The translations under genes and the position numbers were made by a program. Shown one piece after another: positions 2,601-48,721 of a DNA stretch of 48,721 nucleotides. This DNA comes from Chitinophagales bacterium (GTDB lineage Bacteria > Bacteroidota > Bacteroidia > Chitinophagales > UBA2359): assembly GCA_016787295.1 (NCBI GenBank), contig JAEUUX010000069.1, forward strand, positions 1 through 48,721. Reading direction: 5' to 3'. Each line of letters starts with the position of its first letter. Position 1 is the stretch's first letter. The notes under the pieces are model-generated. The model was not told the origin of the DNA, did not search any database, and was given only the letters and a program-made list of their open reading frames with translations.

Positions 2601-2682
2601 CAAGAGCAATGCGGCATTTCTCATGAGAAATGGAGTAAAGAACAAGAGCAATGCGGCGTTTCTCATGAGAAATGGAGTAAAG
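2601..2682 (+). repeat. Two tandem 42-bp units with inner palindrome
   Basis: Two 40-base units (2601-2640 and 2643-2682), two bases apart, differ at one position (GCGGCATTTC versus GCGGCGTTTC). Each contains the perfect palindrome TTTCTCATGAGAAA. This is tandem duplication and not a CRISPR array, since there is no spacer. Confidence 0.8.
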
Positions 2683-2843
2683 CGCATGAGATACATTTTA
2701 TTGTCATTACCCAAAATATTGCTGCTTTTGCGTTTGCTCATTATCGCACAAATTTGAACATTTTTTAATTTTTTTAATCATTTTAATACTGGAAGACGGT
2801 TTTTGATGTAGTGCATTAATTTTTTGTGTTTGAAAATTCTTTT

Positions 2844-3611: not shown

Positions 3612-3630
3612 ATCGGTTGGACTTTGGGTG

Positions 3631-3638
3631 CAAAGGTA
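3631..3638 (-). promoter_or_regulatory. -7 box for the divergent gene
   Basis: The minus strand reads TACCTTTG, a TAnnTTTG match, 20 bases upstream of the ATG at 3611. No TTG is seen at the usual distance, so the leader would be very short. Confidence 0.4.
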
Positions 3639-3678
3639 GGAATTTTTGGGAAATCGGTGGAATATTCCTGTTTTTCTT

Positions 3679-3757: not shown

Positions 3758-6073
3758 ATGGACAAAAAAACACTTTTTTTATATAGCTTACTAAAAGAAT
3801 ATATAAACGAAAACAACATAGGCAATGGTGATACATATAATAAACAAAGCATATGTAATTTTGATGTTTTGTTACTGGACGCAGAAAAGTATGTATCAAT
3901 TTGCGATGACACTGATAGCGAATTTGTTGTTTCTGCACTTTCTATTGTTGATAACAATCAAGCACTATATGTTCAAGAAGAAAAGTTATCAACTGAAAAT
4001 AGTTTTCCCATAGAACAACCCAACGATAGTGATGTTTATAGTCAATATGAATCAGAATTACATATTCTCCTTACTCAAAATCATGACCTTGTAAATTTAG
4101 CAAATACTGTTTTTGCTCTCCAAAAACAGTATTTGTGGAGCTATTTACATAATAGATCAGGTGCTAACACACTTAGCAGTTTCGAATTTTTGAAATCGCG
4201 AGCTGCTTTTGCACAATGTTTGGCTACACCTAATTTTGATAAAAATCACCCCTTTTTACTATTTTGTGGTGACATTTCAGGAATACAAGAATTTATTTAC
4301 AATATTTATTCACGAAAGGCAGCGAAAAGTATCAAAGGACGTTCTTTTTATTTACAATTATTAGTTGATACTATTACACAACATATTATACAAGAAACAC
4401 AAACAAGTATTGCTAATGTTATATACTCAAGTGGTGGAAAGTTTTTTATGTTATTACCTAATACTCTCGAAGTTCGAGAAACACTGCTTGTTTTAGAAAA
4501 TACTATTGCTAAAAATATCTATGAAGAACACAAAGGGAATTTGTATGTTTGCATGGATTTTGTGCCATTTGGAATTGATACTACTAATGATAACAATAAT
4601 TATTACAGGATAGAATGCAGTCAAAAACTGTTAGATGGTAATACCCCTATGGGTATGGGGGACTTATGGAAATTAATATCAGAAAAAACAGCTTTAAAGA
4701 AACGCACTAAATTTAGGAATGTATTTTTAGAGTCAGAAAGTAATTTCGACCGTTTTTTTGCAGGTAATTTAAACGAAGACTACGATGGTTCAAATACGGC
4801 AGTTTGTGCGGTATCTGGCTTGCCTGTCGAAAAAACAGTAGATAATTTAATAGATCGCGATGAAAATAAGTACAAATTTGATCTTGATGATGAAAATAAT
4901 ATCTTTGTGCTTCCCGAAATTGTACAACAAACCAAAATCGGTGAGCAACTAAAAGATGCACGATATTACGTAACGAGCCAACAAGATGCTGGACATCAAC
5001 CTTTAAAATTAGGGATATATCATCGCCTATTGGAAGAAAATGATTTGGTAAATAACTCTCTTCCCATTCAAATTATCAACCCCAAATCAAGTGATAAATT
5101 GTCTGATTTTATAAACGAACGGCGACAGAGCGTGGGTATTTGTTTTTATGGTGGCAATGAACAAGCTATTAGTACTCAAAATTCTCAAAAGTGGAAAACT
5201 TTTGAAGAATTGGCAGAACCAGACGAAAATAAACATTTTAACAAACTTGGTATCTTGCGGATGGATGTAGATAATCTAAATACTTTGTTTACAGGTGAAA
5301 GATTAGACAGAAAACACCAAACTTTTGCAGGTTATTCTTTCTTGTCTATGCAACTAGATTGGTTTTTTAGCGGCTACCTTAATACTGTTCGTAATAGCAA
5401 CGAATTTAAAGACCACATAAATTTGTTATATGCGGGTGGTGACGATCTTTGTGCAGTTGGCAGATGGGATAAAGTAATTGAATTTGCCCAAAAAACACAA
5501 GAAGCATTTTCTAATTATGTACAAAATGACGGAATTACTATTTCGGCAGGTATTAGCCTCGTATCCCCTAAATTTCCAATTACCAAAGCCATCGAACTAG
5601 CAAAATACGCGTTAGACAAAGCCAAAGATTATCGCAATGAACAAACACTTAGTTTGCAACAAATTAATAATCAAATTTTAGACCCCCAAAAAAATGCTAT
5701 ACATTTATTAAATCTTAGTGTTAGTTGGGAAGAATTTGATTTTGTTTTTCAGTTAAAGCAGGTGTTTTATGATATGCTTCAAACTAACAAACTTAGTAAG
5801 GGCATAATGTACAAACTGTTAACATTTCAACAACTGAAAAATCAACAATTACTTGATTGGCATTGGAAAGCCGCCTATACTTTTGCAAAATTAAAAGACA
5901 AACATAATGCGCAATTGTTCGGTAGCTTAAAAATTGCTCTTTGTACAGGTAATTTTGACTATAATGACCCAACCAACAAAGTTTCTTATAAAATTACTGG
6001 CAATAATGCTCGAGAGCGAATGTTAGACCTTATTTGCTTGGCAGTTACATTGGCAGAATATTATTCACGTTAA
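3758..6073 (+). CDS. cas10: Cas10/Csm1, type III-A large subunit
   Basis: 771 aa. Cas10 organises the Csm complex and, when target RNA binds, makes cyclic oligoadenylates in its second palm domain. Seen: GDISGIQEF at about 171-179 (palm 1), SGGKFF at 225-230, and the intact cyclase motif GGDD at 560-563, followed by the helical C-terminal domain. The N-terminal ~165 residues correspond to the HD region in length, but the usual LLHDIGK near the start and the later YDH are absent (the latter region reads LSSFEFLKSRAAFA). The zinc-finger region keeps one Cys (C350, CAVSG) in place of a CxxC pair. DNase activity is therefore probably lost while signalling is kept. It is first in a six-gene AT-rich operon. 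Confidence 0.95.
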   Translation: MDKKTLFLYSLLKEYINENNIGNGDTYNKQSICNFDVLLLDAEKYVSICDDTDSEFVVSALSIVDNNQALYVQEEKLSTENSFPIEQPNDSDVYSQYESELHILLTQNHDLVNLANTVFALQKQYLWSYLHNRSGANTLSSFEFLKSRAAFAQCLATPNFDKNHPFLLFCGDISGIQEFIYNIYSRKAAKSIKGRSFYLQLLVDTITQHIIQETQTSIANVIYSSGGKFFMLLPNTLEVRETLLVLENTIAKNIYEEHKGNLYVCMDFVPFGIDTTNDNNNYYRIECSQKLLDGNTPMGMGDLWKLISEKTALKKRTKFRNVFLESESNFDRFFAGNLNEDYDGSNTAVCAVSGLPVEKTVDNLIDRDENKYKFDLDDENNIFVLPEIVQQTKIGEQLKDARYYVTSQQDAGHQPLKLGIYHRLLEENDLVNNSLPIQIINPKSSDKLSDFINERRQSVGICFYGGNEQAISTQNSQKWKTFEELAEPDENKHFNKLGILRMDVDNLNTLFTGERLDRKHQTFAGYSFLSMQLDWFFSGYLNTVRNSNEFKDHINLLYAGGDDLCAVGRWDKVIEFAQKTQEAFSNYVQNDGITISAGISLVSPKFPITKAIELAKYALDKAKDYRNEQTLSLQQINNQILDPQKNAIHLLNLSVSWEEFDFVFQLKQVFYDMLQTNKLSKGIMYKLLTFQQLKNQQLLDWHWKAAYTFAKLKDKHNAQLFGSLKIALCTGNFDYNDPTNKVSYKITGNNARERMLDLICLAVTLAEYYSR

Positions 6074-6084
6074 AAATATGCAAT

Positions 6085-6561
6085 ATGTTCCATTATCCTG
6101 AAAAAAAGTTATTACCTAAATGGGTGACAGAGGGTATCGAGCGCGATACTATCACTTGGGCAGAAAGTTTTGCTAAATATCTTGTATCAAAAAATCTAAT
6201 TGATGCTAAAGGTGAGAAAGTACTAAAAAAAAATGCCGGTGGTAAAGAGTATGAGGTAACGGTAGAGCCTCTTACCACCTCACAAATACGCCGTTTTTTT
6301 GGAGAGGTTAAACGAATTTCTAATTCTGACAATATCTTTCAAGAAAAGGATTCTATTCTTATGCTAAAACCACAATTAGCATATGCTGTAGGACGAGCTA
6401 AAAGTCGTGAAGACAAAATAAAAGACTTCTATGAGCAATTATCAATTGCTTTAGATACTATTCGTTTAGATAATGATGAAAATTGTGAAAAAGATTTCAG
6501 AAATTTCGTTAAAATCTATGAAGCAATAATTGCTTATCACAAAGCTAATAATGGCAAATAA
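6085..6561 (+). CDS. csm2: Csm2, type III-A small subunit
   Basis: 158 aa from the ATG at 6085, eleven bases after cas10. The frame is open upstream, but that part overlaps the cas10 end and is not Csm2-like. Csm2 proteins form the inner filament of the Csm complex and contact the crRNA-target duplex. Seen: a helical protein with the family stretch LTTSQIRRFFGEVKRI and LMLKPQLAYAVGRAK, plus a C-terminal helix with FRNFVKIYEAIIAYHK. Length fits the family (about 120-160 aa). It marks the system as III-A rather than III-B. Confidence 0.92.
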   Translation: MFHYPEKKLLPKWVTEGIERDTITWAESFAKYLVSKNLIDAKGEKVLKKNAGGKEYEVTVEPLTTSQIRRFFGEVKRISNSDNIFQEKDSILMLKPQLAYAVGRAKSREDKIKDFYEQLSIALDTIRLDNDENCEKDFRNFVKIYEAIIAYHKANNGK

Positions 6562-6580
6562 TTTTTAAAAAAATAAATCA

Positions 6581-7246
6581 ATGAAACTTTTTAAAAAAAT
6601 CATTTTCACAGGCACCCTTAAATGTGTCACAGGTCTTCATATCGGAGACAGCAAAGAAAGTTCCGAAATAGGCGGAGTTGATGCTCCCGTAGTGCGTCGT
6701 AAAGACAATAACCAACCATATATTCCGGGAAGCTCTTTAAAAGGTAAAATTAGGTGTCTCTTAGAACAAGTTGCAGGCGAGAATCTTAATAGTAAAGCAC
6801 AAAATAATGGTTCATGTATTTGCCGTCTTTTTGGTGCTTCTGAAAATAAAAACCTAAAATACGAAAGTTGCCAATCGCGCCTAATTGTCCGTGATGCTTA
6901 TATGAACGAAACTACTGTTAAACTGTTTTCAAAATTAGATACTGAATTACCTTTTACAGAGATTAAATTCGAAAACAGCATTAACCGAATTAAAGGTTCA
7001 GCAGATAGTCCTAGACAATTCGAGCGTATTCCAGCAGGAGCTATATTTAACATCGAGTTTGTTATCAATATTTTTGCAGATACGTCTACAAATGCCAAAA
7101 ACAACCAAATAGAGTTCATTAATAAGCTAAAAGAAGGAATTGATTTGCTTAATAATGACTATTTAGGAGGTAGTGGCTCGCGAGGCTATGGACAAGTTGA
7201 AATTGAATTAAATTCTCCTCAAGAAAAAATTTACAATAATGCTTAA
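6581..7246 (+). CDS. csm3: Csm3, backbone subunit and target-RNA nuclease
   Basis: 221 aa. Csm3 forms the repeated RAMP backbone on the crRNA and cuts the bound target RNA every six nucleotides. Seen: EIGGVDAPV with the catalytic Asp at position 34 (equivalent to D33 of studied Csm3 proteins), then YIPGSSLKGKIR, and a Gly-rich GGSGSRGYGQVEIE near the C terminus. The catalytic Asp is present, so RNA slicing should be intact. It overlaps csm4 by eight bases. Confidence 0.95.
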   Translation: MKLFKKIIFTGTLKCVTGLHIGDSKESSEIGGVDAPVVRRKDNNQPYIPGSSLKGKIRCLLEQVAGENLNSKAQNNGSCICRLFGASENKNLKYESCQSRLIVRDAYMNETTVKLFSKLDTELPFTEIKFENSINRIKGSADSPRQFERIPAGAIFNIEFVINIFADTSTNAKNNQIEFINKLKEGIDLLNNDYLGGSGSRGYGQVEIELNSPQEKIYNNA

Positions 7247-8309
7247 AGTATTCCACCTAAAATTTACCGCACCTTTGCATATTAGTAATGTGCGCGAAGA
7301 TTATGCGCAAAGCAATAGGCGTATTCATTCCGATACGCTATATTCCGCAATTATACAAGTTTGGGCATGGTTGGGAAAAAGCGCCAATTTAGCAGGTTTT
7401 GTGGAGAATAGCAGATCCCCTAATTTTACATTGTCCTCCTTATTTCCCTATACCCAAAGTATAACTACCAATAATAGCTCTAAAACCGTTTATTTTCTAC
7501 CGCGTCCTCTTAAAAGTTTTGATTTAACACCAACCGTTATACACGAATTTAAGGGTAAAATGAAACTTTTAAAAGAAATAGAATGGTTAGATGTTGCTAC
7601 CTATACCGAGCAAATACAACAAGCTAAAGGTTATACTCCTAAACGCCAAGAGGTACAACAAATTTATCTATCTAAAGACACCATTAATACCAACTTTTTG
7701 GATAGTCAAATTATTCCTCATGTTAGCATCCCACGCGATGGCGGAGATGCAAATCCTTTTTATGTGGAACAATTGCGTTTTGCTTCCAATAGTGGTTTAT
7801 ATGGCATCTTTGAAGGCAGCGAAACTGATTTTGCTGACTTCAAGGTAGCCATGAATCTCCTACAAGACGAAGGAATTGGAACAGATAAAAGCATGGGTTA
7901 TGGACGTTTCGAGTTTTCTATAGCAGACGAAACAACTACACAACAATTCAAAACACTATTTCAACAAACTGAAACACATACTTATTATACCAATTTGTCA
8001 CTCTATAATCCCGAAAGTTATAGTAGTTTGTTAGAAATGTTGCCACAAAATGACCCAAATGTTGGTTTTGAATGGATAAAACGAGGCGGCTGGATAACAA
8101 GTTTTCCGTACATGACCAAAAGAAAAAAATCAATTTATATGTTTGCAGAAGGAAGTATTTTTAAATCTAATACTCCTTTGACCGAGCATGGCTTTTGTCG
8201 TGATGTAAAACCTGCTATTATTAGCGCTAACGAACACCCTATTTGGCGTGTTGGTAAAAGTTTATTTGTCCCTATCTTATTCCCGTCTCCATCTTCCAAA
8301 AATCTTTAA
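7239..8309 (+). CDS. csm4: Csm4, Cas5-group RAMP subunit
   Basis: 356 aa, starting inside the end of csm3. Csm4 binds the 5' tag of the crRNA and holds Cas10 at the base of the complex. Seen: an N-terminal RAMP strand with LKFTAPLHISN, the Csm4-typical RIHSDTLYSAIIQVW, and a Gly-rich loop GIGTDKSMGYGRFEF. The C-terminal third (GGWITSFPYMTKRKKSIYMF, then HPIWRVGKSLFVPI) also follows the Csm4 pattern. Length is slightly above the usual ~300 aa. Confidence 0.92.
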   Translation: MLKVFHLKFTAPLHISNVREDYAQSNRRIHSDTLYSAIIQVWAWLGKSANLAGFVENSRSPNFTLSSLFPYTQSITTNNSSKTVYFLPRPLKSFDLTPTVIHEFKGKMKLLKEIEWLDVATYTEQIQQAKGYTPKRQEVQQIYLSKDTINTNFLDSQIIPHVSIPRDGGDANPFYVEQLRFASNSGLYGIFEGSETDFADFKVAMNLLQDEGIGTDKSMGYGRFEFSIADETTTQQFKTLFQQTETHTYYTNLSLYNPESYSSLLEMLPQNDPNVGFEWIKRGGWITSFPYMTKRKKSIYMFAEGSIFKSNTPLTEHGFCRDVKPAIISANEHPIWRVGKSLFVPILFPSPSSKNL

Positions 8310-8316
8310 ACAAATC

Positions 8317-9447
8317 ATGAACGAACAACTTAATACCAACCAAAATATTCAACTAACTGTCCTTAGTCCGTTACATATAGGGGCAGGCACAGAAAAGCGT
8401 ATCGTATATGGTATAGATTATTTTTATGATACTAATAAAAAAAGAGTCTACATCATAGCTCCCGACAAACTATTTGGCGCGTTGCGAAACAAAGGTGCAA
8501 ACTTGAACACTTATAGTTCTATGATAGCCGATAATAAAAAGAGAGAATTGGAAAAATGGTTGTTCGACACTTTAAAAATCTCTCTCGCTGATATCTCAGC
8601 ATATAATTATAGTTTAAACGCACCACCTGACAACGAAATAAACACGTTTATTCGTTCAGGATTAAACACGCCTTATATCCCCGGTAGTTCTCTAAAGGGA
8701 GCTATCCGTACTGCTATATTCCATTATTTGTATCAAAAGCATGAAAAAGATAATAATGGAAACTTAATTACTAAGGCTCCATTCCCAATTTACAAAGACC
8801 AAGCTGAACAATACCTGATAGGGAATTTTGATAATAGCATTATGCGACATATCAAAATTGGTGATGCTGTATGTATTAAACAACAATTAGCCTTATCTTT
8901 TGTTGGTTTATTCAATCTATATCCTAATAATAATTCAACTACCACAGATTGGGCAAGTGATTGGAAAAATGGTTTTAGTATTACTTCTGAAACCCTTGAG
9001 CCTACTTCCACAGCGGAATTTCGCTTAAGCATTGGACAGCCTTTTATTGACATATTAAGCACTAAGTTCAATGCCAAACTTCCTCAATTTATTCACCAGG
9101 TTATCCCTCAAAAAAATCCACTAAAACATTTGTTTAACATCATTAATAGTTACACTCAAACACACCTTGAACGTGAAATCGCTTTTTTTAAGACCTACGA
9201 TCATGCAGAAGACTCTGATTTGATAATAGGACAATTAGAATCATTTTTGCAAGAAATCGTTAGTAATTCTAATAAAAATATGTGTATCTTGCGCATGGCT
9301 TGGGGCAGTGGTTTTCATGCTATTAGTGGTGATTGGCAATATATTGACCACACAGATACAGGATTTCAGAAAAATGGCAAGAAAAAATACAAATCTCGCC
9401 GTATTGCATACGACAAATGTATGGGTTTTGTAAAACTTAATTTTTAA
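8317..9447 (+). CDS. csm5: Csm5, cap RAMP subunit
   Basis: 376 aa from the ATG at 8317, seven bases after csm4. A longer open frame exists but would overlap csm4 by over 60 bases with no Csm5 features. Csm5 caps the crRNA 3' side of the complex and helps crRNA maturation by recruiting host nucleases. Seen: LTVLSPLHIGAGTEKRIVYG at the N terminus, YIPGSSLKGAIRTAIFHYLY in the middle, and a Gly-rich WGSGFHAISGDWQYID near the end. Confidence 0.92.
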   Translation: MNEQLNTNQNIQLTVLSPLHIGAGTEKRIVYGIDYFYDTNKKRVYIIAPDKLFGALRNKGANLNTYSSMIADNKKRELEKWLFDTLKISLADISAYNYSLNAPPDNEINTFIRSGLNTPYIPGSSLKGAIRTAIFHYLYQKHEKDNNGNLITKAPFPIYKDQAEQYLIGNFDNSIMRHIKIGDAVCIKQQLALSFVGLFNLYPNNNSTTTDWASDWKNGFSITSETLEPTSTAEFRLSIGQPFIDILSTKFNAKLPQFIHQVIPQKNPLKHLFNIINSYTQTHLEREIAFFKTYDHAEDSDLIIGQLESFLQEIVSNSNKNMCILRMAWGSGFHAISGDWQYIDHTDTGFQKNGKKKYKSRRIAYDKCMGFVKLNF

Positions 9448-9471
9448 CATCCTTTAACTAAAAAATATATC

Positions 9472-10881
9472 ATGGCTAACAAACAAAACAAACAAATTCC
9501 TAAAATTCTTGTTGCTAATGTAGGTAATCGTAATTTTAAGTGGCAAGGCGATTTCATTGATACTAAAGATGACTTCAGAGGCATAACGAAGTGCATTTAT
9601 GATTACATCCAAACAGAAAAAGATAATTTAGAAATTTCTATTATCGGTTCTTTATTAACGAAACTTCAAACGGCATCTCAAATTGATAAAATAATTCTGT
9701 TTGGCTCAAACCAAGAAGGTTTTGGAGATAGCAAACACGTAACAAAAGACACTTTATATGCTGCACGAATTTTGTCTTCTTTAATAAAAGACACATACAA
9801 TATTAATACCGAAGTAAAAGAAATAAAATGCAATATTCGTGAAGTTGATAAACTTTTCGAACAGTACCAAACTCACTTGAATGAAATCAAGAGCGAAAAT
9901 CCAGAAGCTAATATTATTGTTTGCGATAGTGGTGGCACTCCACAACAAAAAACAACCTTGCGTATAGTTGCAGAATATCTTTTAGAGGCTTCTAAATTCG
10001 AATTTTGGCAAGTTTACGAAATTTTAGATGAAAAAGGCAATGTTATAGATAGCGAAGCCCAAAAGTATGCATCTAAAGCATACAAAACTATCATAGACAA
10101 TAAACAAGTTATTTTGCTAATAGAAAAAGGCAATTATCAAGCAGCAGCAGCTATTTATGGCAGTGAAGGAACAACAGAGGACAGAATTAGTAAACAGCTA
10201 AAGGCTGTTAGTTTGCGAAAACAGCTTTTGTTACACGATGCAAAAACTATTGTTAATAGAATGAGGGATGATAGTCTTTTACCTTCATTGAAAACATTAA
10301 AAAATAGTAGTTTAGGTGATTATACTAAATGGCAGGATTATTTTGAGCGTTCGCATTTTAATATGCTTGCAGAAACCTTATCTGTGGCAGATTTCTTTTA
10401 TCATCATCTAAAAGATTATAACAATACCATTTTGTATTATCATATCTTTATGGAAAAATGCCTTAACGCACTTATTTCTAAAAAATTGCCAAACTATGAC
10501 CTGATGCAAGCAAACAGTTATAAAGAAAATGCCGAAAAATTGCTTATATATCTTAAAGGAAATAACTTAATCTCGGCAAATAGTAGCCATTTATCATTAC
10601 CAGTAAAACAAACATATGTAAAAACAAACATAATCAATAAAAACAATGACATTGATAAATGCATCAACTATTTTTTTCAATGGTGTAATGGTTACTTTAG
10701 TAACCATCGAAATAAAATTGCTCATGAAGGAATGGGTATAAAGGACGAAACCGTTCTAAAATCCATTTCTATAAATTTTGCTACGGAAACCAAAGATTGG
10801 TATAGTTTATTCGGCTTGCCCCATAAAAATATCTATCTCCAAACAAACGAGGAAATCACCAAGGCTTTAAAACTAAATTAA
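9472..10881 (+). CDS. csm6: Csm6-family CARF-HEPN RNase
   Basis: 469 aa. Csm6 proteins are stand-alone RNases switched on when cyclic oligoadenylate made by Cas10 binds their CARF domain; they then degrade RNA non-specifically. Seen: an N-terminal Rossmann-like CARF region with ILVANVGNRNF and the ligand-loop pattern DSGGTPQQK (G154-P157), then helices, then a C-terminal HEPN site SNHRNKIAHEG with R413 and H418 (the R-x4-H motif). Both sensor and catalytic residues look intact. It is the last gene of the cas10 operon, 24 bases after csm5. The ring size it senses (cA4 or cA6) cannot be read from sequence by eye. Confidence 0.88.
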   Translation: MANKQNKQIPKILVANVGNRNFKWQGDFIDTKDDFRGITKCIYDYIQTEKDNLEISIIGSLLTKLQTASQIDKIILFGSNQEGFGDSKHVTKDTLYAARILSSLIKDTYNINTEVKEIKCNIREVDKLFEQYQTHLNEIKSENPEANIIVCDSGGTPQQKTTLRIVAEYLLEASKFEFWQVYEILDEKGNVIDSEAQKYASKAYKTIIDNKQVILLIEKGNYQAAAAIYGSEGTTEDRISKQLKAVSLRKQLLLHDAKTIVNRMRDDSLLPSLKTLKNSSLGDYTKWQDYFERSHFNMLAETLSVADFFYHHLKDYNNTILYYHIFMEKCLNALISKKLPNYDLMQANSYKENAEKLLIYLKGNNLISANSSHLSLPVKQTYVKTNIINKNNDIDKCINYFFQWCNGYFSNHRNKIAHEGMGIKDETVLKSISINFATETKDWYSLFGLPHKNIYLQTNEEITKALKLN

Positions 10882-12766: not shown

Positions 12767-13013
12767 TCAATGTTGTGGTGAGCAAAGGGCGTTAGCCGCC
12801 GCAAAAAAGCGCTGGGTAGAAAAGTTCGAATGGCGAAGCGCGTTAGGGATGCGGAGGGTGGCGTTAGCCAGTGCGGAGAGTAACGCAGCACCAAGCAAAG
12901 CGAAGCCCATAGCAGCCCGACCCGCAGGGAAACGCCCAAAAATAATCATAAAATTTAGAACCGAATCGTATCTAAAATGGTAATAGATTGGGGTCTGTGA
13001 CCTATAGCAATGA
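12767..13013. other. Intergenic region holding repeat copy 2
   Basis: Between cas6 and the shared terminator. It contains the dispersed repeat and, just before it, GGGCGTTAGCCGCC, which looks like an extra fragment of the same repeat type. No gene is supported. Confidence 0.6.
12824..12942 (+). repeat. Dispersed ~120-bp structured repeat, copy 2
   Basis: Same ends and same central variant (GGCGTTAGCCAGTGCGGAG) as copies 1 and 5, and same orientation as copy 1. Copies 1 and 2 bracket the whole CRISPR locus. Confidence 0.9.
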
Positions 13014-23029: not shown

Positions 23030-24574
23030 TCAGAATAGATTCAAGGCTTCATCACCATAGACCACTAATTTTTTTATTTTTCCGGGCTGCGCCCAATTCA
23101 TGGTGCCTTCCATTTTGAGCGACAATAGATAGTCTTCCACTTTTTTGTCTGACAAAGCAGTACAAATGCGTTGAGCTTCTGCCAGCGTTTTTACAGGTAT
23201 AAAGGCTTGCAAAGATTGATTAGCCTGCCAATGTCCGTCAAATATTTGTGGTTTAAAACTCTTTCTGCCATACGCTTCCCAGACTACTTTGTAAGGAAAA
23301 AAACTATATGCCCCAACACCCAGCAACGCCCACCAATATCCACGTTTCATTGTGGCATTGAGCAATACGCCTTTGCGGTTTTGGAGCTTTATTTTGTGGG
23401 TTTCTAAATAATTTTGTAAGTCCGTAAAAACTTGAATTTGTTGCCATTCCAAAGCTTTGCCATTACTATCGTAGGGCAGCAACACCCATTTATTGGGGAC
23501 TAAAGGGTGGAAACCGAAATTTTTAGCTGCAATTAATGGAAAAACAAATTGGCGTGGTAACAGCACATCTGTAAGTATTTTATTCGAAACAGAAACGGTA
23601 TGTTCGTCTACCGATATCAAAGTGTCAAAAATAAAAATATCATTTGCTCCACAAGTGTTAATGCCTTGTCGTGGACAAGATTCTTTGTCAATAACGATGG
23701 GCGTAATGCTATCGAACATGACAGTATCTTGTTCAGCCATAACGCTCAAAGGGTCGGTTTGGTGGAACATAGGTTGCGCTACTTTATTAGCCCAAACACC
23801 TTCGTTGAGACAAAAATAGGGAATGGGAAAAGTAGTATGTTGGTTGCGTATAAAATGCGCTAATCCATACCGAGTAGCTACACCACCAAAAATAGCGGTA
23901 TCATTAAAATCATAAATACATTGCAAGGCATATTTAATTTCCGCAATACTATACGTTCTAAAACTTTTGTTAGCCCCGTCGTTTAAAAACAGGGAAAGTG
24001 GCAGGAAAAATACAGCCTCTCCATTTTCAGCCAAAAAATCTTTAATAGCCACCTGAACAATCAAAGCAGCCAAATCTATCCTACTTCCACCAAGCAATAA
24101 ATTTCGGCTATTATCTACCAAATCATATTTGAAAAAATAGTGCTTAATTTTTTGTTTGTAATTATCGGGTAAGTCTACAAAGTTCTGCCAAGGTGGATTA
24201 CCCAGTATTATGTCATATTGTTTGGGAGGTAAATGCAATAAGTCTTCATTCGTAAAATTGGAGTGCATGAATAGTTGATATCGTTGCTCAAATTTTTGTT
24301 GTGCTTTGACGAAGTGATGCGTATTTAGTTCATTACCAAAAAGGCAGTGTGTGGGCAGTTCATTTATTGCATAGCCTTGTTTGATTCCATATATAATAAG
24401 TGCTTCTAACAAGTTAGCCGTTCCCATGGTTGGGTCAAACACCAATGCACCATTTATCCATTTTTGGAAGATGTCGAATTTTTCGATAGCGAACTCTGCC
24501 CATTGTGGAGGCGTAAAAATATCGCCTATATGTAGTTGTTTATGAGACCAATCGGGAAGCGAAACAATGCCCAT
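23030..24574 (-). CDS. N6-adenine DNA methyltransferase (Eco57I/TaqI-like)
   Basis: 514 aa. Seen: motif X-like FTPPQWAEFAI, SAM-binding motif I VFDPTMGTANLL (about 45-56), and catalytic motif IV DIILGNPPWQNF with NPPW at 126-129, which is typical of gamma-class N6-adenine methyltransferases. The second half, with DNA-contact features such as ATMKRGYWWALLGVGAYSF, is probably the target recognition domain. No restriction nuclease motif is seen at the N terminus and no restriction gene is adjacent, so it looks solitary, either for epigenetic marking or as a remnant of a restriction system. Recognition site unknown. Confidence 0.85.
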   Translation of the reverse strand: MGIVSLPDWSHKQLHIGDIFTPPQWAEFAIEKFDIFQKWINGALVFDPTMGTANLLEALIIYGIKQGYAINELPTHCLFGNELNTHHFVKAQQKFEQRYQLFMHSNFTNEDLLHLPPKQYDIILGNPPWQNFVDLPDNYKQKIKHYFFKYDLVDNSRNLLLGGSRIDLAALIVQVAIKDFLAENGEAVFFLPLSLFLNDGANKSFRTYSIAEIKYALQCIYDFNDTAIFGGVATRYGLAHFIRNQHTTFPIPYFCLNEGVWANKVAQPMFHQTDPLSVMAEQDTVMFDSITPIVIDKESCPRQGINTCGANDIFIFDTLISVDEHTVSVSNKILTDVLLPRQFVFPLIAAKNFGFHPLVPNKWVLLPYDSNGKALEWQQIQVFTDLQNYLETHKIKLQNRKGVLLNATMKRGYWWALLGVGAYSFFPYKVVWEAYGRKSFKPQIFDGHWQANQSLQAFIPVKTLAEAQRICTALSDKKVEDYLLSLKMEGTMNWAQPGKIKKLVVYGDEALNLF

Positions 24575-27180: not shown

Positions 27181-27303
27181 AAATCAATTTATATTTGCTG
27201 CTTTCTTATTTAGACAATAGGCTTAACAAAAGTGCTATATAGTGTTCTGTTTTACCTATTTTGTCGGAATAAAATGCTATTATTTCGCGCAACATCATAA
27301 ATG

Positions 27304-27412
27304 CTCGAATGGCGAAGCGCGTTAGGGATTGTAAGGGCAGCCGCAGGCTGGTGCTTGCACCGAAGCGGAGCGAAGCCCTGTAAAGCCCGACCCGCAGGGA
27401 AACGCCCAAAAA
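27304..27412 (+). repeat. Dispersed structured repeat, copy 3
   Basis: Same ends as the other copies but with a different middle: CAGCCGCAGGCTG and GTGCTTGCAC small hairpins in place of the GGCGTTAGCC hairpin. Copy 4 shares this variant. Confidence 0.9.
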
Positions 27413-27485
27413 ATTCAATAGCATGTATTCGACAAAATAACCGAAATGGAACAATAGTATATACCTATCGAAATGTGGTTTTGAC

Positions 27486-28185: not shown

Positions 28186-29280
28186 TTAATGTACACGAAA
28201 TAATTGTTGAGCTTGGTGCAACAATATAAAATCGGCAACCACCAAAGCTGCCATAGCTTCGACAATAGGTACGGCGCGTGGCAAAACACAAGGGTCGTGC
28301 CGTCCTTTACCTATGATTTGGGTTGCTTCGCCTTGTCTATTTACGGTTTCTTGTGGTTGCATAATTGTTGCCACAGGCTTAAAAGCCACCCTAAAATAGA
28401 TGTCCATACCGTTGCTAACACCGCCCTGAACGCCACCCGAATGATTCGTCCGTGTAGCAATGCGTTGTTGCAAAGTATCAAAATAAAACAAATCGTTGTG
28501 CTGACTACCGCGCCAATGTGTGCCTGCAAATCCTGAACCATACTCAAATCCTTTGACCGCATTAATACCCAACATGGCTTTGCCCAATTGTGCATGTAAT
28601 TTGTCAAAAACAGGTTCGCCCAAACCACTTGGCAAAGCTTGCACCACACCTGTCACCACACCGCCAATCGTGTCACCTTCTTTGCGAACTTGTCGGATAA
28701 GTGTTTCCATGTCGGCTGCCATGGCTGCGTCGGGACAACGCACAGGATTCGAGTCTATTTGGCTAAAGTCCAATTCCGTATAAGGTGTGTTGAGACACAA
28801 ATCACCCACTTGCGAAACGTATGCAACGATGCGAATGCCGTAGTGTTGTAGCAACAAATTGGCAATAGCGCCTGCCGCTACTCGAGCCACCGTTTCGCGC
28901 GCCGATGAACGTCCTCCACCGCGATAATCCCGAAAACCATATTTTTGGTCGTAGGTAAAATCGGCATGTGAGGGTCTATAGGTAGTTATATTGTGGTCAT
29001 AATCGTTTGACCTTTGGTTTTCGTTCCGAATCAACAAAGCAATAGGCGTGCCTGTAGATTTGCCTTCAAAAACGCCGGACAAAATTTCTACAGTATCACT
29101 TTCTTTGCGCTGTGTGACAATAGCAGACTGCCCAGGACGACGACGGTCAATACAACTTTGTATGTATTCCAAAGAAATGGACAAACCCGCAGGACAACCA
29201 TCTATCACAACTCCTAATGCCAAGCCATGCGACTCGCCAAAAGTAGTTATGCGGAACAACTTGCCAAAAGTATTCGACAT
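28186..29280 (-). CDS. aroC: Chorismate synthase
   Basis: 364 aa from the ATG at 29280; the 15 codons upstream are open but precede the conserved [19 protein letters not shown] start. The enzyme makes chorismate from EPSP, the last step of the shikimate pathway to aromatic amino acids, using reduced FMN. Seen: [35 protein letters not shown] with [10 protein letters not shown], and the C-terminal [18 protein letters not shown]. All are family signatures and the length is usual. Confidence 0.97.
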
Positions 29281-29396
29281 ATATTGATAACGATTAATGA
29301 GGTGGTTTCGTTGCTTGTACAACAATGTTTAATGGGGATCCGAATTAAAGTATATAAAGCCAAAATTTGCTTGTGTAGAGGATACACCTAAAAACA

Positions 29397-29431
29397 AAAA
29401 CGGCACTTACTTGTTGGTAAGATGCCGTTTT
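29397..29431 (-). terminator. Terminator of the ATPase-nuclease cassette
   Basis: Hairpin of AAAACGGCA(T)CTTAC and GTAAGTGCCGTTTT with one bulge, and on the minus strand a run of T's. It is preceded by the 37-bp conserved element. Confidence 0.75.
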
Positions 29432-29467
29432 GCACTTAAATCTTTAAAACCACCTTTGAACGAACAA
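29431..29467 (-). repeat. 37-bp conserved 3' element, copy 1
   Basis: On the plus strand GCACTTAAATCTTTAAAACC then ACCTTTGAACGAACAAA-like bases; an essentially identical stretch is at 31465-31501. Both lie directly upstream (minus strand) of a hairpin terminator, though the hairpins differ. Confidence 0.8.
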
Positions 29468-29575
29468 ATATTTTTATAGAAAACACTTCAGTTAATTTTG
29501 GTACAAAACATAATACCTCAAATAAACTTAGATGTCACAATTAATGAGCATTTTGATAAATGTAATTTCTGAAAA

Positions 29576-30124
29576 TTACGAAATCCAGTCAAAATTTGTA
29601 ATGGCTTGTGTTTTTGTCATTACTATAAAAGACTTAATATCATAAAGTTTTGCATAAGATTTAAATCTGGATTTATATGCAGAATTGATAGAAGCAATAT
29701 AAGTTACATCGGGACTTGTCCAATTAATAATTGATAAAAGTCTGACTTTAGTAGCATGGGTTATTATAAAAGAAGAACAGCTCTGAATATTTTGTGAATA
29801 TGGCTTTTTTAGTAGAATTGACATAAACATAGAGACGCTATCAACAGATTTTTTCCATAATTCATTTACTCTGTAAGCACTTATTCCCTCTTTTATTTCC
29901 ACTATCTTTTCTGCTGAGATATTTGGATCGCTTTCTTCATTTAGAATGCCGTTTCCCCAGTCTTTTAGCTCAATAATATACAAGGTATTAGTAGCTTGTT
30001 CGTACCAACAAACATCCATTTCTTTGAAATTGTGTTGTATATCTCTATACCCTTGACAATCTTGAAAACGAAAAACATTATTGTCGGGAAAATTAAGCGT
30101 TATAGAGCTTTCTGTTATTGTCAT
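29576..30124 (-). CDS. Small PD-(D/E)xK-like nuclease candidate
   Basis: 182 aa. The N-terminal half has a strand-turn-strand pattern KEMDVCWYEQATNTLYIIEL then KDWG, with Asp37, Glu52 and Lys54 placed as in the D-(x)n-E-x-K site of PD-(D/E)xK nucleases. The rest is helical then beta, with SCSSFIITHATKVRLLSIIN and FIVMTKTQAI. No named family is recognised. It starts five bases after the ATPase stop, so the two are surely one operon and probably one system, where the ATPase senses or loads and this protein cuts nucleic acid. Nuclease activity is inferred. Confidence 0.72.
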   Translation of the reverse strand: MTITESSITLNFPDNNVFRFQDCQGYRDIQHNFKEMDVCWYEQATNTLYIIELKDWGNGILNEESDPNISAEKIVEIKEGISAYRVNELWKKSVDSVSMFMSILLKKPYSQNIQSCSSFIITHATKVRLLSIINWTSPDVTYIASINSAYKSRFKSYAKLYDIKSFIVMTKTQAITNFDWIS

Positions 30125-30129
30125 AAGTG

Positions 30130-31206
30130 TTAAGCATTTAAATCAATTTTTATTTCTTCATCAAACATTTTTAATGTTTCTTCGATAATTGAATTAGAAG
30201 GCAAAACACCATCGATAAGGTTATGAAAAGAGCAACTCACAGGTTTGCCGTTTTCGCGCGACAAACTCCAACAGCTAATGTTTAGCTGGTCTCTTTTTGC
30301 ACAATTTGATAACTGTTTAATAACAAAATAACTATGAGAGGCTATGAATATTTGAACACCAGACTTACTCATTGCTACCAACATTTCAACCATTTGTCTA
30401 ACAGCTTCAGGGTGTAATGCAGTTTCTGGTTCGTCCATAAATAGTATTGTACCTTTTCCTAATTGTCTATTAGTAATCAATGTTGTTAAAATGCCTATTT
30501 TTTTAATACCTTCTGCTGTTTGCGGCATTGCAAATTGTTGGTTTCCTTTTTTAAACAAAAAAGGCTGTTCCTTTTGGCCTGTTTGCTCAATTTTACCTTC
30601 AAATAGGTTTTCCAACGACTTGTTTACAGTACTTAATTCATTCGCAACTCGCCCTTTTGTGGTTCCCAAGTTTAATGCTTTTATTAGATCAAGATAAGTA
30701 TCATCAAAACCAACACCATAAAAATTTTCTCTGATGTTTCTAATGTCATTAAACGCTGTTAACACTTCTTTTGCAGGTACAAATAGTGCGTTAATAGAAT
30801 TGTCTGGCAATTTATCCACATATTCAATACATGTAGAGATAGATCTTTCAGTTCTATCTCCAAATGAATAATATATAGGTTGTTTATATTTGCCATTATT
30901 ACCAAGTATAGTAATATTAACATCTAACTTATCTTTACTGCCTTTCATAACTAAATCACCAAGCCCATTTTTTCGTGGCATGAAAGTATCATAGAGTTTA
31001 TCTGCTAATTCTTTTTTGAAGGAAACATCTGTTGATACTGATTTTAAACTATATATTTCAAGTGATTTAATAGTGGCATAAAGTAGTTTTAACAACCCAG
31101 TTTTACCTGTATCATTTTTCCCGATTATCACATTGATTTCTGGTATATCTTTTATGCTCAAATCAGAATGAGACATAAAGTTTTTTATAGTTATAGAATT
31201 TATCAT
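30130..31206 (-). CDS. ABC/OLD-like ATPase, first gene of two-gene cassette
   Basis: 358 aa. Seen: Walker A GKNDTGKT at 29-36 right after MINSITIKNFMSHSDL (the RecF/OLD-type start), a long coiled middle, an ABC signature-like TAEGIKKIGIL (229-239), Walker B ILFMDEPETALHP with Asp257-Glu258, and the switch His in IASHSYFVIKQL (His290). This is the AAA_15/AAA_21 group, many of which act as sensors or motors in phage-defence pairs. There is no TOPRIM domain, so it is not a complete OLD nuclease. The partner is the small nuclease-like gene downstream. Confidence 0.85.
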   Translation of the reverse strand: MINSITIKNFMSHSDLSIKDIPEINVIIGKNDTGKTGLLKLLYATIKSLEIYSLKSVSTDVSFKKELADKLYDTFMPRKNGLGDLVMKGSKDKLDVNITILGNNGKYKQPIYYSFGDRTERSISTCIEYVDKLPDNSINALFVPAKEVLTAFNDIRNIRENFYGVGFDDTYLDLIKALNLGTTKGRVANELSTVNKSLENLFEGKIEQTGQKEQPFLFKKGNQQFAMPQTAEGIKKIGILTTLITNRQLGKGTILFMDEPETALHPEAVRQMVEMLVAMSKSGVQIFIASHSYFVIKQLSNCAKRDQLNISCWSLSRENGKPVSCSFHNLIDGVLPSNSIIEETLKMFDEEIKIDLNA

Positions 31207-31434
31207 TTAACTGTTTCTGTAGTGTTGTTTTAATGGTGGGAAACACAAGAAAAAATGAAGCATTCTTGTAAAAAAGGAGAATTGTGGTTGCAAAGTTATT
31301 ACTTATTCTTTAAGCGCGCAAATTTTTTTCATTTTTTGTAAAAAAAAGTAGAAAAAAAAGGTGAAAATTTTTTTTTCACCTCCAAAATACTCAAAAATGA
31401 TGATTCTAAAACGTCAAAGCAGACAAAAAACGAA
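31207..31434. other. AT-rich upstream region of the cassette
   Basis: Holds the cassette promoter (31291-31321) and a hairpin AGGTGAAAA ... TTTTTCACCT near 31359-31382. No gene is seen. Confidence 0.55.
31291..31321 (-). promoter_or_regulatory. Promoter of the ATPase-nuclease cassette
   Basis: Minus strand: TTG (31319-31321), 20 bases, TAACTTTG (31291-31298). It is 85 bases before the ATPase ATG, so the cassette has its own promoter. Confidence 0.55.
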
Positions 31435-31462
31435 AACGGTAGCTTAAATCGCAGCTACCGTT
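31435..31462 (-). terminator. Terminator after the beta-barrel gene
   Basis: AAACGGTAGC ... GCTACCGTTT with T-rich tail on the minus strand. Confidence 0.7.
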
Positions 31463-31464
31463 TC

Positions 31465-31501
31465 GCACTTAAATCTTTAAAACCACCTTTGAACGAACAA
31501 A
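31465..31501 (-). repeat. 37-bp conserved 3' element, copy 2
   Basis: Matches 29431-29467 almost base for base. It lies between the beta-barrel gene end and its terminator. The two copies flank the ATPase-nuclease cassette. Confidence 0.8.
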
Positions 31502-31604
31502 CATTTTGCATAATAGTAGTTCAAATAATACCTATCTAACAAAGGTGATAGCAAGTTTATTCTAACAGATTAAATAGAGTAGGAGAGAGGGAGGGTGATG
31601 ATGA

Positions 31605-32252
31605 TTAGTTAAAATTGATAACAGGAACAACACTGCGTTTTTGTTTAAAGGTATAACCCAAGCCTACAGCACCCGCCAAGTTCATGCCAAAGTTACCTGT
31701 TTTGCTATATACAGTAGCGATAGGTGTGATACCTGCACGGAAGAACAAACCACCATTAGGATTTTGGTAGCGATAGCCAACACGAGCTGTGAGGTTAAGC
31801 GTTGTATATTCTTTTTCGGGTGTATATTTAACCACTTTTGTACCTTGTGCAGTTTCGCCGTTCAAAGACGCTTCTGTTTGTTCGAAACCAAAACCTACCA
31901 ATGTGCCAATGCTTGTTTCTAAACGGTGATTAGTTTTACCAAACAAAGCATTTACTTCCAAAGACAAAGTAGGGTCAATATCATTTTTGCTGGGTACAGT
32001 AGCGCCAACTCCAACTTTGGTTGTCAATGCAAACGCTGGCGTAGCAAAAACAATGTGGTCAAAATTGAGGCTATATAAAGAACCATTGTTGCCAACTTCT
32101 GCAAAAACAGTATTTGTTTGAACCATAACGCTATCTGTTGCAACAGTAGTAGTAGGAGTAACAGTGGCAGGGATAACTGTATTAACAGTAGATTGAGCAA
32201 AAGCAGTGAAAGTTACGAAAACTAAGGCAATAGTTAAAACTAGATTTTTCAT
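31605..32252 (-). CDS. Outer-membrane beta-barrel protein
   Basis: 215 aa. Signal peptide MKNLVLTIALVFVTFTAFA, a Thr/Val-rich spacer to about 50, then about eight amphipathic strands (LYSLNFDHIVFA, FALTTKVGVGATV, LETSIGTLVGFGFEQ, YTTLNLTARVGYRYQ, GLFFRAGITPIATVY, NLAGAVGLGYTF). This is the layout of small outer-membrane barrels in Bacteroidota. Ligand unknown. Its promoter lies about 470 bases upstream, leaving a long structured leader. Confidence 0.8.
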   Translation of the reverse strand: MKNLVLTIALVFVTFTAFAQSTVNTVIPATVTPTTTVATDSVMVQTNTVFAEVGNNGSLYSLNFDHIVFATPAFALTTKVGVGATVPSKNDIDPTLSLEVNALFGKTNHRLETSIGTLVGFGFEQTEASLNGETAQGTKVVKYTPEKEYTTLNLTARVGYRYQNPNGGLFFRAGITPIATVYSKTGNFGMNLAGAVGLGYTFKQKRSVVPVINFN

Positions 32253-36425: not shown

Positions 36426-37247
36426 ATGCTAAATGAAACAGCCAATATAATGGTCAATCAACTGTATTTGGGAGACAATTTGGAGGTTTTGCGCCAACTG
36501 CCTTCCGAGTGTGTAGACATGATTTATTTTGACCCACCTTTCTTTTCCAACAAGCAATATCCGATGCGTACCGACCTGCAACAAGTGTCGGGTTTCGACG
36601 ACCGTTGGCAGTCGCTTGACCATTATCTGCAATGGCTCAAGGATAGAACCATAGAATTATACCGTATTCTGAAGCCAACAGGTACACTTTATCTGCACTG
36701 CGATTGGCACGCCAACGCATATATCCGTGTGCAAATTTTAGATCCTTTATTTGGAGGAAAAAACTTTCGTAACGAACTGATTTGGCACTACGAAACAGGT
36801 GGTATTCCACAACGAGATTTTGCTCGAAAGCATGATACCATTTTTCGCTATACCAAAAGTCAGGATTTCTATTTCAACCCAGAGGCTGTTCAAGAACTGC
36901 GCAGCGAAGAGGTGTTGCGGCGTTTAGCAACAGGACAAAAAAATGCTACTCGCTCCAAAGGACAATGGCGACACCCTTCCGATGTTATCCAAATTCCTGC
37001 TCTTAACGCTATGGCAAAAGAACGTGTTGCCTACCCCACCCAAAAACCGGAGTATCTACTCGCACACCTATTGCTGGCAAGCACAAAACCCAACGACTTG
37101 GTGCTTGACCCCGCCATAGGTAGCGGCACAACACTTGTGGCAGCCCACAAATTGCAGCGCCAATATATTGGGATAGACCAAAATCCTACTGCCATTGCAT
37201 TGACACAACAGCGATTAGCAGCATTGGTAGATAATCCTATCAATTGA
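36426..37247 (+). CDS. Beta-class N6-adenine/N4-cytosine DNA methyltransferase
   Basis: 273 aa. Seen: motif IV DMIYFDPPFFSNKQY with DPPF at 36-39, then KPTGTLYLHCDWHANAYIR, and the SAM-binding motif I late in the protein (LVLDPAIGSGTTLVAA, about 225-240), followed by QYIGIDQNP. Motif IV before motif I defines the beta class; DPPF favours adenine-N6. It may start at 36450 instead. No restriction gene is adjacent; it looks solitary. Confidence 0.88.
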   Translation: MLNETANIMVNQLYLGDNLEVLRQLPSECVDMIYFDPPFFSNKQYPMRTDLQQVSGFDDRWQSLDHYLQWLKDRTIELYRILKPTGTLYLHCDWHANAYIRVQILDPLFGGKNFRNELIWHYETGGIPQRDFARKHDTIFRYTKSQDFYFNPEAVQELRSEEVLRRLATGQKNATRSKGQWRHPSDVIQIPALNAMAKERVAYPTQKPEYLLAHLLLASTKPNDLVLDPAIGSGTTLVAAHKLQRQYIGIDQNPTAIALTQQRLAALVDNPIN

Positions 37248-42797: not shown

Positions 42798-42840
42798 TGT
42801 TCGTATAGGTCAATTTTTGCAATTATAATATGATAGTTAG

Positions 42841-42948
42841 TTGGGCGTTTCCCTGCGGGTCGGGCTTTACGGGGCTTCGCTAACGCTTCGGTGCAAGCAC
42901 CAGCCTGCGGCTGCCCCTACAATCCCTAACGCGCTTCGCCATTCGAAT
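42841..42948 (-). repeat. Dispersed structured repeat, copy 4 (inverted)
   Basis: Reverse-complement orientation: starts GGGCGTTTCCCTGCGGGTCG and ends CGCCATTCGAAT. It carries the CAGCCTGCGGCTG/GTGCAAGCAC middle like copy 3. It lies just before nuoB and faces copy 5. Confidence 0.9.
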
Positions 42949-43052
42949 AATAATAAGGTAGTTATACTTTTTTTGATGGCTAACGCCTTCTCAACAAGCA
43001 ACAAAACAAGAAAAAATATAATCAATAATCATCAAACAAGCAACATATCTAC

Positions 43053-44253: not shown

Positions 44254-44373
44254 GTTCGAGGCGCGAAGCCGCGTTAGGGATTGTAAGGGTGGCGTTAGCC
44301 AGTGCGGAGAGCAACGCAGCACCATAGCAAAGCGAAGCCCTGTAAAGCCCGACCCGCAGGGTAACGCCCAAAT
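44254..44373 (+). repeat. Dispersed structured repeat, copy 5
   Basis: Same ends and GGCGTTAGCCAGTGCGGAG middle as copies 1 and 2, starting 15 bases after nuoC. It is in the opposite orientation to copy 4 across nuoBC. Confidence 0.9.
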
Positions 44374-44402
44374 AAATACCCACCATTAAAGCTATCTCTA
44401 TC

Positions 44403-47598: not shown

Positions 47599-48210
47599 AT
47601 GAACAATATCCTCGAAATCACCCAACTATCCCAATTAGACCCCAATGGCATCTATTCTTATGCCGATTATTTGATGTGGAAATTCAGCGAAAGAGTCGAA
47701 CTGATTAAGGGGGCGATTCTTAAAATGGCTGCGCCGAGTATTAGTCATCAAACAGTTTCAGGTAGTTTTTATTTGCAAATAGCCACGCAATTACAGCAAA
47801 AAGCCTGTAAGGTATTCTTCGCTCCCACCGATGTTCGCCTGCTCAATCCGAGCCTTTCCACACCCGAACAAGAAGTGTATACTGTTGTACAGCCCGACCT
47901 TTTTGTGGTGTGTGATTTGCAGAAATTAGACCAGCGAAGTTGTCTGGGTGCTCCCGAGTTGATTATCGAAATCATTTCTGCATCGAACAAAAAACACGAC
48001 ATCGACACCAAATTTCACCTATACGAAGAAGCTGGTGTGTTGGAGTATTGGATAGTTTTTCCAAATGAAAAGGTTGTCAATGTGTTTGACTTGGACAAGA
48101 CAACCCAAAAGTATGTTTTCCGCAAAATCTACAGTGACGACGAAGCCATTCCGAGTAGCGTTTTGGCTGGTTTGGAGGTAGATTTGAACAAAGTTTTTGC
48201 AGACCTATAA
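47599..48210 (+). CDS. Uma2-family PD-(D/E)xK nuclease, copy 1
   Basis: 203 aa. Uma2 (DUF820) proteins are small PD-(D/E)xK endonuclease-like proteins, very frequent in cyanobacteria and Bacteroidota; role unknown. Seen: VVQPDLFVVCD with Asp100, APELIIEIISASN with Glu124, KHDIDTKFHLYEEAGVLEYWIV. Tandem copy follows 13 bases downstream. Confidence 0.9.
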   Translation: MNNILEITQLSQLDPNGIYSYADYLMWKFSERVELIKGAILKMAAPSISHQTVSGSFYLQIATQLQQKACKVFFAPTDVRLLNPSLSTPEQEVYTVVQPDLFVVCDLQKLDQRSCLGAPELIIEIISASNKKHDIDTKFHLYEEAGVLEYWIVFPNEKVVNVFDLDKTTQKYVFRKIYSDDEAIPSSVLAGLEVDLNKVFADL

Positions 48211-48223
48211 AACCCATAACACC

Positions 48224-48721
48224 ATGAACAATATCCTCGAAATCACTCAACTATCCCAATTAGACCCCAATGGCATCTATTCTTATGCCGATTATTTGAT
48301 GTGGAAATTCAGCGAAAGAGTCGAACTGATTAAAGGGGCGATTCTTAAAATGGCTGCGCCGAGTCTAAGTCATCAAACAGTCTTGAGTGACTTACATTTT
48401 CAAATACGCTCACAATTACAGCAAAAAACCTGTAAGGTATTCTTCGCTCCCACCGATGTTCGCCTGCTCAATCCGAGTCTGTCTACGCCCGAACGAGAAG
48501 TGTATACTGTTGTACAGCCCGACCTTTTTGTGGTGTGTGATTTGCAGAAATTAGACCAGCGAAGTTGTCTGGGCGCTCCTGAGTTGATTATCGAAATCAT
48601 TTCTGCATCGAACAAAAAACACGACATCGACACCAAATTTCACCTATACGAAGAAGCTGGCGTGTTGGAGTATTGGATAGTTTTTCCAAATGAAAAGGTT
48701 GTCAATGTGTTTGACTTGGAC
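48224..48721 (+). CDS. Uma2-family nuclease, copy 2 (cut by window end)
   Basis: First 166 codons. Nearly identical to copy 1 except in a central patch (about residues 47-69: LSHQTVLSDLHFQIRSQ against ISHQTVSGSFYLQIATQ) and scattered silent changes. The catalytic-site residues are kept. The rest lies outside the window. Confidence 0.9.
   Translation, partial: MNNILEITQLSQLDPNGIYSYADYLMWKFSERVELIKGAILKMAAPSLSHQTVLSDLHFQIRSQLQQKTCKVFFAPTDVRLLNPSLSTPEREVYTVVQPDLFVVCDLQKLDQRSCLGAPELIIEIISASNKKHDIDTKFHLYEEAGVLEYWIVFPNEKVVNVFDLD

Follow-up and report, generated by a model that had tools for sequence, protein, structure and literature searches.

It has long been asked, with regard to restriction-modification (RM) systems, how small defence units that carry no recombinase enter genomes, and the question is posed by a gene pair of a Chitinophagales bacterium (assembly GCA_016787295.1, contig JAEUUX010000069.1). 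The stretch analysed here, positions 1-48,721 of that contig (48,721 nt; hereafter the window), carries on its minus strand an ATPase gene (31206-30130, gene A) and, after a spacer of five bases, a small open reading frame (ORF; 30124-29576, gene B). An outer-membrane-type gene (31605-32252) lies on one side of the pair and aroC (28186-29325) on the other, and two direct copies of a 37-bp sequence bracket it. The pair is almost certainly a member of HEC-02, and we consider it likely that this HEC-02 defence module arrived by horizontal transfer and was inserted with a duplication of 37-50 bp. The point of interest is the mobility pattern; the family itself is already catalogued as a candidate defence family. 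The features on which the argument turns are:

31465..31501, no strand: 37-bp direct repeat, outer-membrane-gene side (50 bp at 96%, about 31457-31507)
29432..29468, no strand: 37-bp direct repeat, aroC side (50 bp at 96%, about 29425-29474)
29475..31456, minus strand: unit of 1,982 bp enclosed by the repeats, made up of the ATPase and nuclease-like genes with a 250-bp leader before and a 101-bp trailer after them
30130..31206, minus strand: HEC-02A, ABC/SMC-head-type ATPase, 358 amino acids (PADLOC HEC-02A, Pfam, motifs, AlphaFold2 (AF2) model)
29576..30124, minus strand: HEC-02B, PD-(D/E)xK-type nuclease-like protein, 182 amino acids (PADLOC HEC-02B, motif, AF2 model)

Both genes match the HEC-02 profiles

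The ATPase matches the PADLOC profile HEC-02A (PDLC04214) with E=1.6e-105 over residues 1-355 of 358, and its partner matches HEC-02B (PDLC04224) with E=7.3e-25 over residues 4-177 of 182. An earlier note on this DNA, made from its letters and ORFs, held that the pair matches no recognised system, a claim that these two PADLOC-DB matches overturn. The same note described a RecF/OLD-type ATPase with a small PD-(D/E)xK-type partner carrying D37, E52 and K54, and both descriptions are supported by what follows.

Pfam assigns the ATPase to AAA_15/AAA_21 and, more weakly, to other ATPase families, in agreement with an AAA_15/RecF-like class. Its Walker A (GKNDTGKT) and Walker B (LFMDEPET) motifs are kept in 25 aligned homologues, with one G to C change in Walker A. 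The AF2 model (predicted local distance difference test score, pLDDT, 85.6) resembles SMC and Rad50 heads, Septu PtuA and the PtuA of retron Eco7/Ec78, with Z up to 19.2. AriA, AbiLi and other ATPase models in PADLOC-DB match the protein far more weakly than HEC-02A does. No relatives of the ATPase were found in viral contigs. ATPase-type matches occur in 21 of 40 relatives, the best besides the window's own gene being 29% identical with no B alongside; at this level of sequence identity (29% or less), we take them for other ATPases.

The B protein has no Pfam match and, among the PADLOC-DB profiles, matches HEC-02B models only, at E up to 1. All 23 aligned B proteins retain D37, E52 and K54, and in the AF2 model (pLDDT 95.9) D37 lies just before a predicted strand (38-42) while E52 and K54 lie on another (47-57), which places a D...(D/E)xK triad on a predicted β-hairpin. 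The structural neighbours given by VIA-align include Upx (Z 7.8, root-mean-square deviation 3.7, 132 aligned) and FokI (Z 7.2, 3.4, 128), followed by Cdn1, Can2, BstEII, McrC, HamA and Shedu, all of which we take to have a restriction-endonuclease-like fold. Considering the invariance of the motif and the confidence of the model on the one hand and the weakness of the fold matches on the other, the catalytic motif is well supported and a restriction-endonuclease-like fold moderately so. The B protein has no match in phages and a single weak one (24%) in plasmids, and the idea that the pair is cargo of phages or plasmids was accordingly rejected.

The pair is linked, patchy and apparently transferred horizontally

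Scanning genome contigs with the A alignment gave 44 loci (L065-L108). We excluded L097-L108, judged not to be HEC-02A on account of 27% identity or short matches; L095, in which A is broken and B was not found; and L096, L077 and L080, where the contig ends (within A in the latter two). B lies directly downstream of A in 26 of the 28 loci left, and the other two retain a remnant of B after A (the first ~70 nt in L073, the last 60 nt in L085). Four of the 26 (L071, L076, L091, L094) have no more than a fragment of the B frame, and L078 has a split A. Over 22 loci the distance matrices of A and B correlate with r=0.955, a value that none of 999 permutations reached.

Fixed co-occurrence was what the earlier note had proposed to look for, with B homologues apart from the ATPase, or the same arrangement as core genes in all relatives, as the contrary outcomes. 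Co-occurrence is what 26 of the 28 loci display, and a core arrangement is not what the genome sets show. Nine of 395 genomes of the phylum have a B match: seven, the window's included, have a full adjacent A, one (G222) has a truncated A, and one (G215), whose match is distant (27% identical), has no ATPase. Within the set of 40 relatives the only genome with a B match is the window's own.

In seven genomes (L065, L066, L067, L069, L070, L071 and L072), A is 79-86% identical to that of the window, with aroC at 63-67%. This comparison spanned 16 genomes, one of them without an aroC match and four with aroC in two pieces or at 38%; the statement on transfer rests on the seven with an unbroken aroC match and A at least 79% identical, to the exclusion of L068 (A 83%; aroC pieces 52% and 43%). 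L065 and L068, the closest host pair that are not near relatives by name among the matches listed, share DNA 89% similar over 1667 bp, the similarity reaching 26 bp upstream of A and 9 bp downstream of B and no further. The pair is AT-rich in GC-richer hosts too, e.g. 0.34 GC within flanks of 0.53 in L069. Judged by these sequence comparisons, HEC-02 is rare and patchy, appears to be horizontally transferred, and is not a core component of these genomes.

Stray and decayed forms were also observed. L024 carries at 1501-2079 a stand-alone, distant HEC-02B-like gene with no ATPase, between leuS-like and Lrp/AsnC-like genes (neighbours named by eye). At L073 (11083-12575), HEC-02A is 75% identical and B breaks off after ~70 nt, followed by unrelated genes. 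Decayed Chlorobium copies (L021/L092, L091, L094, L017) show an extra 'LM' codon run in A, a truncated A or a broken B.

Direct repeats bracket the pair in the window and at other loci

The matching 37-bp elements that the earlier note had seen at the two ends are exact copies on the same strand. No equal repeat arose in 100 shuffles, and at up to three mismatches the two are the only copies in the 5.42-Mb genome; viral contigs contained no copy of the 37-mer. Longer alignments extend the repeat to 50 bp at 96% (blastn) or 55 nt at 93%. The 1,982-bp unit between the copies contains no recombinase or transposase gene, the two genes with their leader and trailer accounting for all of it. The inter-repeat stretch has a GC content of 30.4% versus 40.1% in the remaining window, in keeping with the AT-rich pair with a five-base gap that had been described, although other stretches of the window, e.g. 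4-11 kb, are almost equally AT-rich. On the minus strand each 37-mer leads into a hairpin:

31433..31464, minus strand: terminator-like hairpin and T-run following the repeat copy on the outer-membrane-gene side and preceding the ATPase gene (pattern scan; fold z -2.6)
29397..29431, minus strand: terminator-like hairpin following the repeat copy on the aroC side, in the gap that separates gene B from aroC (fold z -3.6)

The two hairpins differ in sequence, and the repeat is therefore the 37-50 bp just before a terminator and not the terminator itself.

By one blastn criterion, close direct repeats lie on both sides of the pair at 6 of 28 HEC-02 loci (the window included) and at none of 1080 equal-length control segments. 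The 28 comprise the window and 27 loci, L085 (short flank) and L095 (broken A) being left out; the repeats of L095 would qualify, and keeping it gives 7/29. As the controls overlap and are drawn from the same loci, the Fisher value is not an independent test. The test was set up after repeats had first been seen; under a looser criterion used earlier, 3 of 176 controls have them.

The repeat is a locus-specific, two-copy sequence in the window (50 bp) and at L075, L081 and L087. At L075 it is 99 bp at 97% and corresponds to the 3′ end of the next gene, at L081 it spans 412 columns at 83% within a sugar-transferase-type gene, and at L087 it is 124 bp at 90%, made up of the 3′ end of an HNH-type gene and DNA beyond (gene types partly assigned by eye). 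The L076 repeat is dispersed, with 7 copies in its locus, and the L065 repeats are attC-like, so that at most 4 of the 28 loci have target duplications. The repeats of the five other positive loci differ in sequence and in length (99, 120, 124, 149 and 412 alignment columns), the copies enclose 1,421-1,982 bp, the leader never exceeding 250 bp and the trailer never exceeding 101 bp, and no shared motif was seen by eye at the insert ends. Repeats thus bracket the unit both here and elsewhere, which strengthens the earlier suggestion that matching end elements point to insertion.

An unoccupied site in Chlorobium

Locus L087, from a Chlorobium genome that is also G250, was set against 61 genomes of that genus, including the one it comes from. 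Both of its flanks match a single G222 contig, the left one with query positions 356-844 at 97.8% identity and the right one with 2679-3642 at 93.9%, and the two matches share 124 bp there (9103-9226). The 124-bp L087 repeat is present in G222 in a single copy, which makes the ~1.8-kb L087 unit an insertion (or a precisely excisable block); a single copy beside the HNH-type gene is also found in G344 and G293. Both G222 and G321 also contain damaged copies of the pair elsewhere, either at a distance of a few kilobases or on a different contig. At L075, none of 39 genomes, its own among them, has both flanks side by side.

How the unit may have entered

We propose that the unit entered between the outer-membrane gene and aroC, breaking neither neighbour and duplicating 37-50 bp of the target. 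Joining would most likely have been carried out by host recombination on incoming DNA, with one junction homologous and the other illegitimate, and not by an enzyme of the unit's own; such joining would yield duplications of variable length. The L087 pattern fits incoming DNA whose right junction was homologous and whose left junction was illegitimate.

A precedent comes from RM systems, which, in the excerpts of three papers at hand, are said to insert with target duplications that are long, in the region of 100 bp, and variable in length, in some cases unlinked to any mobile element (PMC3874152, PMC3031569, PMC4978471); these statements all cite Nobusato 2000, and PMC3874152 and PMC3031569 also cite Furuta 2010. 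Inserted RM systems and HEC-02 have in common a small recombinase-free unit, direct repeats around 100 bp long that vary from site to site, and a single-copy site in a relative of one locus; they differ in that HEC-02 is an ATPase-nuclease pair with no methyltransferase. No literature report of such a footprint for HEC-02 was found by title or abstract start, a weak negative.

For the window itself, insertion with duplication is in our judgement probable, and four other accounts of the repeats have to be set beside it. Two exact 37-bp copies around a recombinase-free insert are also the expected outcome if a circular unit with one repeat copy had integrated by a single crossover at the 37 bp, with a recombinase acting in trans and the repeats being attL and attR. 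We regard this as unlikely: the repeats of the five other loci differ in sequence and length, which speaks against one site-specific enzyme, and the 37-mer is missing from the viral contigs. Somewhat less likely still is an integron-type cassette, in which an integron integrase inserted the pair and the window repeats are degenerate attC-like sites. The Arsenicibacter pair (L065) probably is such a cassette, flanked by ~147-bp repeats, arranged in three successive copies, with very stable hairpin folds; related elements occur in Belliella as three same-orientation copies beside an integron-integrase-like tyrosine recombinase (L114; G435 contig C43, 83945-90700), where integrase and attC-like repeats are on one contig and HEC-02 is on another, C22. 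The likeness to integron gene cassettes is confined to the L065 arrangement and does not extend to that of the window. The window genome (G000) lacks an L065-type element (attC sites of other types were not searched for), and the window repeat occurs only twice in that genome and does not itself form a hairpin. The best integrase-family match of the window genome scores 78.6 bits, below six of nine genomes (108-130 bits), a scale on which Arsenicibacter's own match reaches 80.8 bits, no genome passes the family cut-off and 14 of 14 control genomes also match.

That nothing was inserted at all, the pair being an old neighbour and the repeats a coincidental product of a local duplication of the terminator region, would agree with the position of the window repeats, which abut terminator-like hairpins. 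This account is very improbable in view of the absence of B from 39 other genomes of the set of 40, the AT-rich insert, the signal of horizontal transfer and the repeat counts of 6/28 versus 0/1080. Equally far-fetched, in our estimate, is the idea that HEC-02 is itself mobile, the ATPase and nuclease cutting the chromosome with a wide stagger so that the ~1.8-kb pair re-inserts with long, variable duplications; if true, this would be recombinase-free transposition by a defence nuclease, and it would explain why RM systems leave the same footprint.

A number of observations weigh against transfer of a defence module followed by insertion. Twenty-two of the 28 loci have no such repeats, and the different hairpin after each window repeat is unexplained by plain duplication. 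For the window no empty site was found, there being no congener among the relatives searched, and in ten family genomes, some with short contigs, no other window gene lies beside aroC within the stretches covered, and gene order around aroC is not conserved. At L087 the two repeat copies are not a fresh duplicate, since out of 124 positions 1 in the left copy and 11 in the right depart from the G222 sequence; G222 could represent precise excision, and duplication followed by recombination could likewise account for the L087 copies. Locus L083 shows the opposite pattern to the seven genomes above (A 52%, aroC 65%), the greater conservation of A than of aroC could partly reflect stronger constraint, and some Chlorobium loci share flanks beyond the pair among the matches listed. 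As for function, the nuclease fold of the B model is matched at Z values that stay under 8 and among which unrelated acetyl-CoA carboxylase rows appear (Z 7.0), Foldseek found nothing for this model at E<=0.001 (best E 0.28), the single L065 neighbour scanned has no defence match, and the literature searched yielded no report of HEC-02 as a defence system, the term being found there only in an unrelated chemistry paper.

Transfer and insertion with duplication nevertheless remain our preferred account. HEC-02 would then be a second gene pair, unrelated to RM systems, with a like footprint, varying repeat lengths and, in one case, unoccupied sites in the same genus. The insertion step is thereby open to study in a defined unit of ~1.8 kb, which is also a compact candidate ATPase-nuclease defence system.

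Predicted function and relation to known defence pairs

We consider the predicted defence function of the pair quite likely. In the excerpts available, HEC stands for Hma-embedded candidate (PMC10855318), the source preprint is Payne et al. 2024 as cited in PMC12255303, HEC-05 is equated with BrxU (PMC11411939), and several HECs, HEC-06 among them, have antiviral activity, HEC-02 not being named in that excerpt (PMC12988326). The window pair resembles homologous HEC-02 loci in that both genes match the profiles and are adjacent, on the same strand and in the same order; it differs in sitting between direct repeats and in having no Hma genes beside it in the listed ORFs.

Neighbours of a defence type were found at three loci: Septu PtuA, DrmD, TmtA and a type IV enzyme at L087, a type I RM system and PtuAB at L076, and a type III enzyme at L075. 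Nine of the ten proteins scanned, from four loci, had a match, the proteins having mostly been picked by eye for a defence-like look.

In Septu, PtuA works with the HNH nuclease PtuB. By analogy, the HEC-02 ATPase could be a PtuA/SMC-like sensor or clamp on DNA that restrains or licenses the PD-(D/E)xK protein, which would cut DNA once phage DNA is sensed. The window pair shares with Septu and with the PtuAB effectors of retron Eco7/Ec78 an ATPase model near PtuA (Z about 19) and a small nuclease-type partner, and it differs from Septu in that this partner is of the PD-(D/E)xK and not the HNH type. We rejected filing the pair under Septu because the B protein matches none of the PtuB models that the profile library includes. 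PARIS (AriA-AriB) and AbiL (AbiLi-AbiLii) likewise have an AAA_15-type ATPase, and the AriA and AbiLi models match weakly, whereas the second protein of the window matches HEC-02B models only; it has no AriB or AbiLii match, the presence of such models in the library being unchecked. PARIS and AbiL are thus left open as poorer fits than HEC-02.

The ATPase model is as close to SMC and Rad50 heads as to PtuA, and the pair might serve DNA repair or plasmid competition and not phage defence. We consider this doubtful, given that the pair is patchy, moves horizontally, has decayed in some Chlorobium (G222 with its truncated A) and has defence-type neighbours in three loci.

Other features of the window

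The earlier note gave the pair its own promoter and terminator, and matching signals were found in the form of the hairpins listed above and of a promoter-like motif:

31291..31322, minus strand: Bacteroidota-type promoter TTTG-N20-TAACTTTG, within the unit, ending 84 bp before the ATPase start

Motifs of the form TTTG-N20-TAACTTTG, which we take to be the Bacteroidota promoter consensus, number 11 in the window versus 1.9 expected, and sigma-70-type sites are not enriched there (16 versus 11.7 expected). The pattern scan gave three terminator-like sites in the region versus 0.7 expected, including a second hairpin and T-run at 31383-31357; the hairpin at 29431-29397 is absent from this list and more stable than 200 of 200 shuffles. 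An Rfam search of the window and five loci found two tRNAs and nothing else. In G020, a genome of another family, an outer-membrane-type gene adjoins aroC (32% over 138 amino acids).

Elsewhere in the window, an AT-rich type III-A CRISPR-Cas operon at 3758-10881 encodes Cas10, Csm2, Csm3, Csm4, Csm5 and a Csx1/Csm6-type protein. A GC-rich repeat of ~120 bp is dispersed over both strands (2299-2418, 12824-12943, 27303-27413, 42834-42959 and 44255-44375). The gene at 47599-48210 matches the PADLOC candidate PDC-S03 and is followed by a neighbouring copy, 92% identical over 300 bp (region 47599-48721). Two DNA-methyltransferase-like genes lie at 23030-24574 and 36426-37247.

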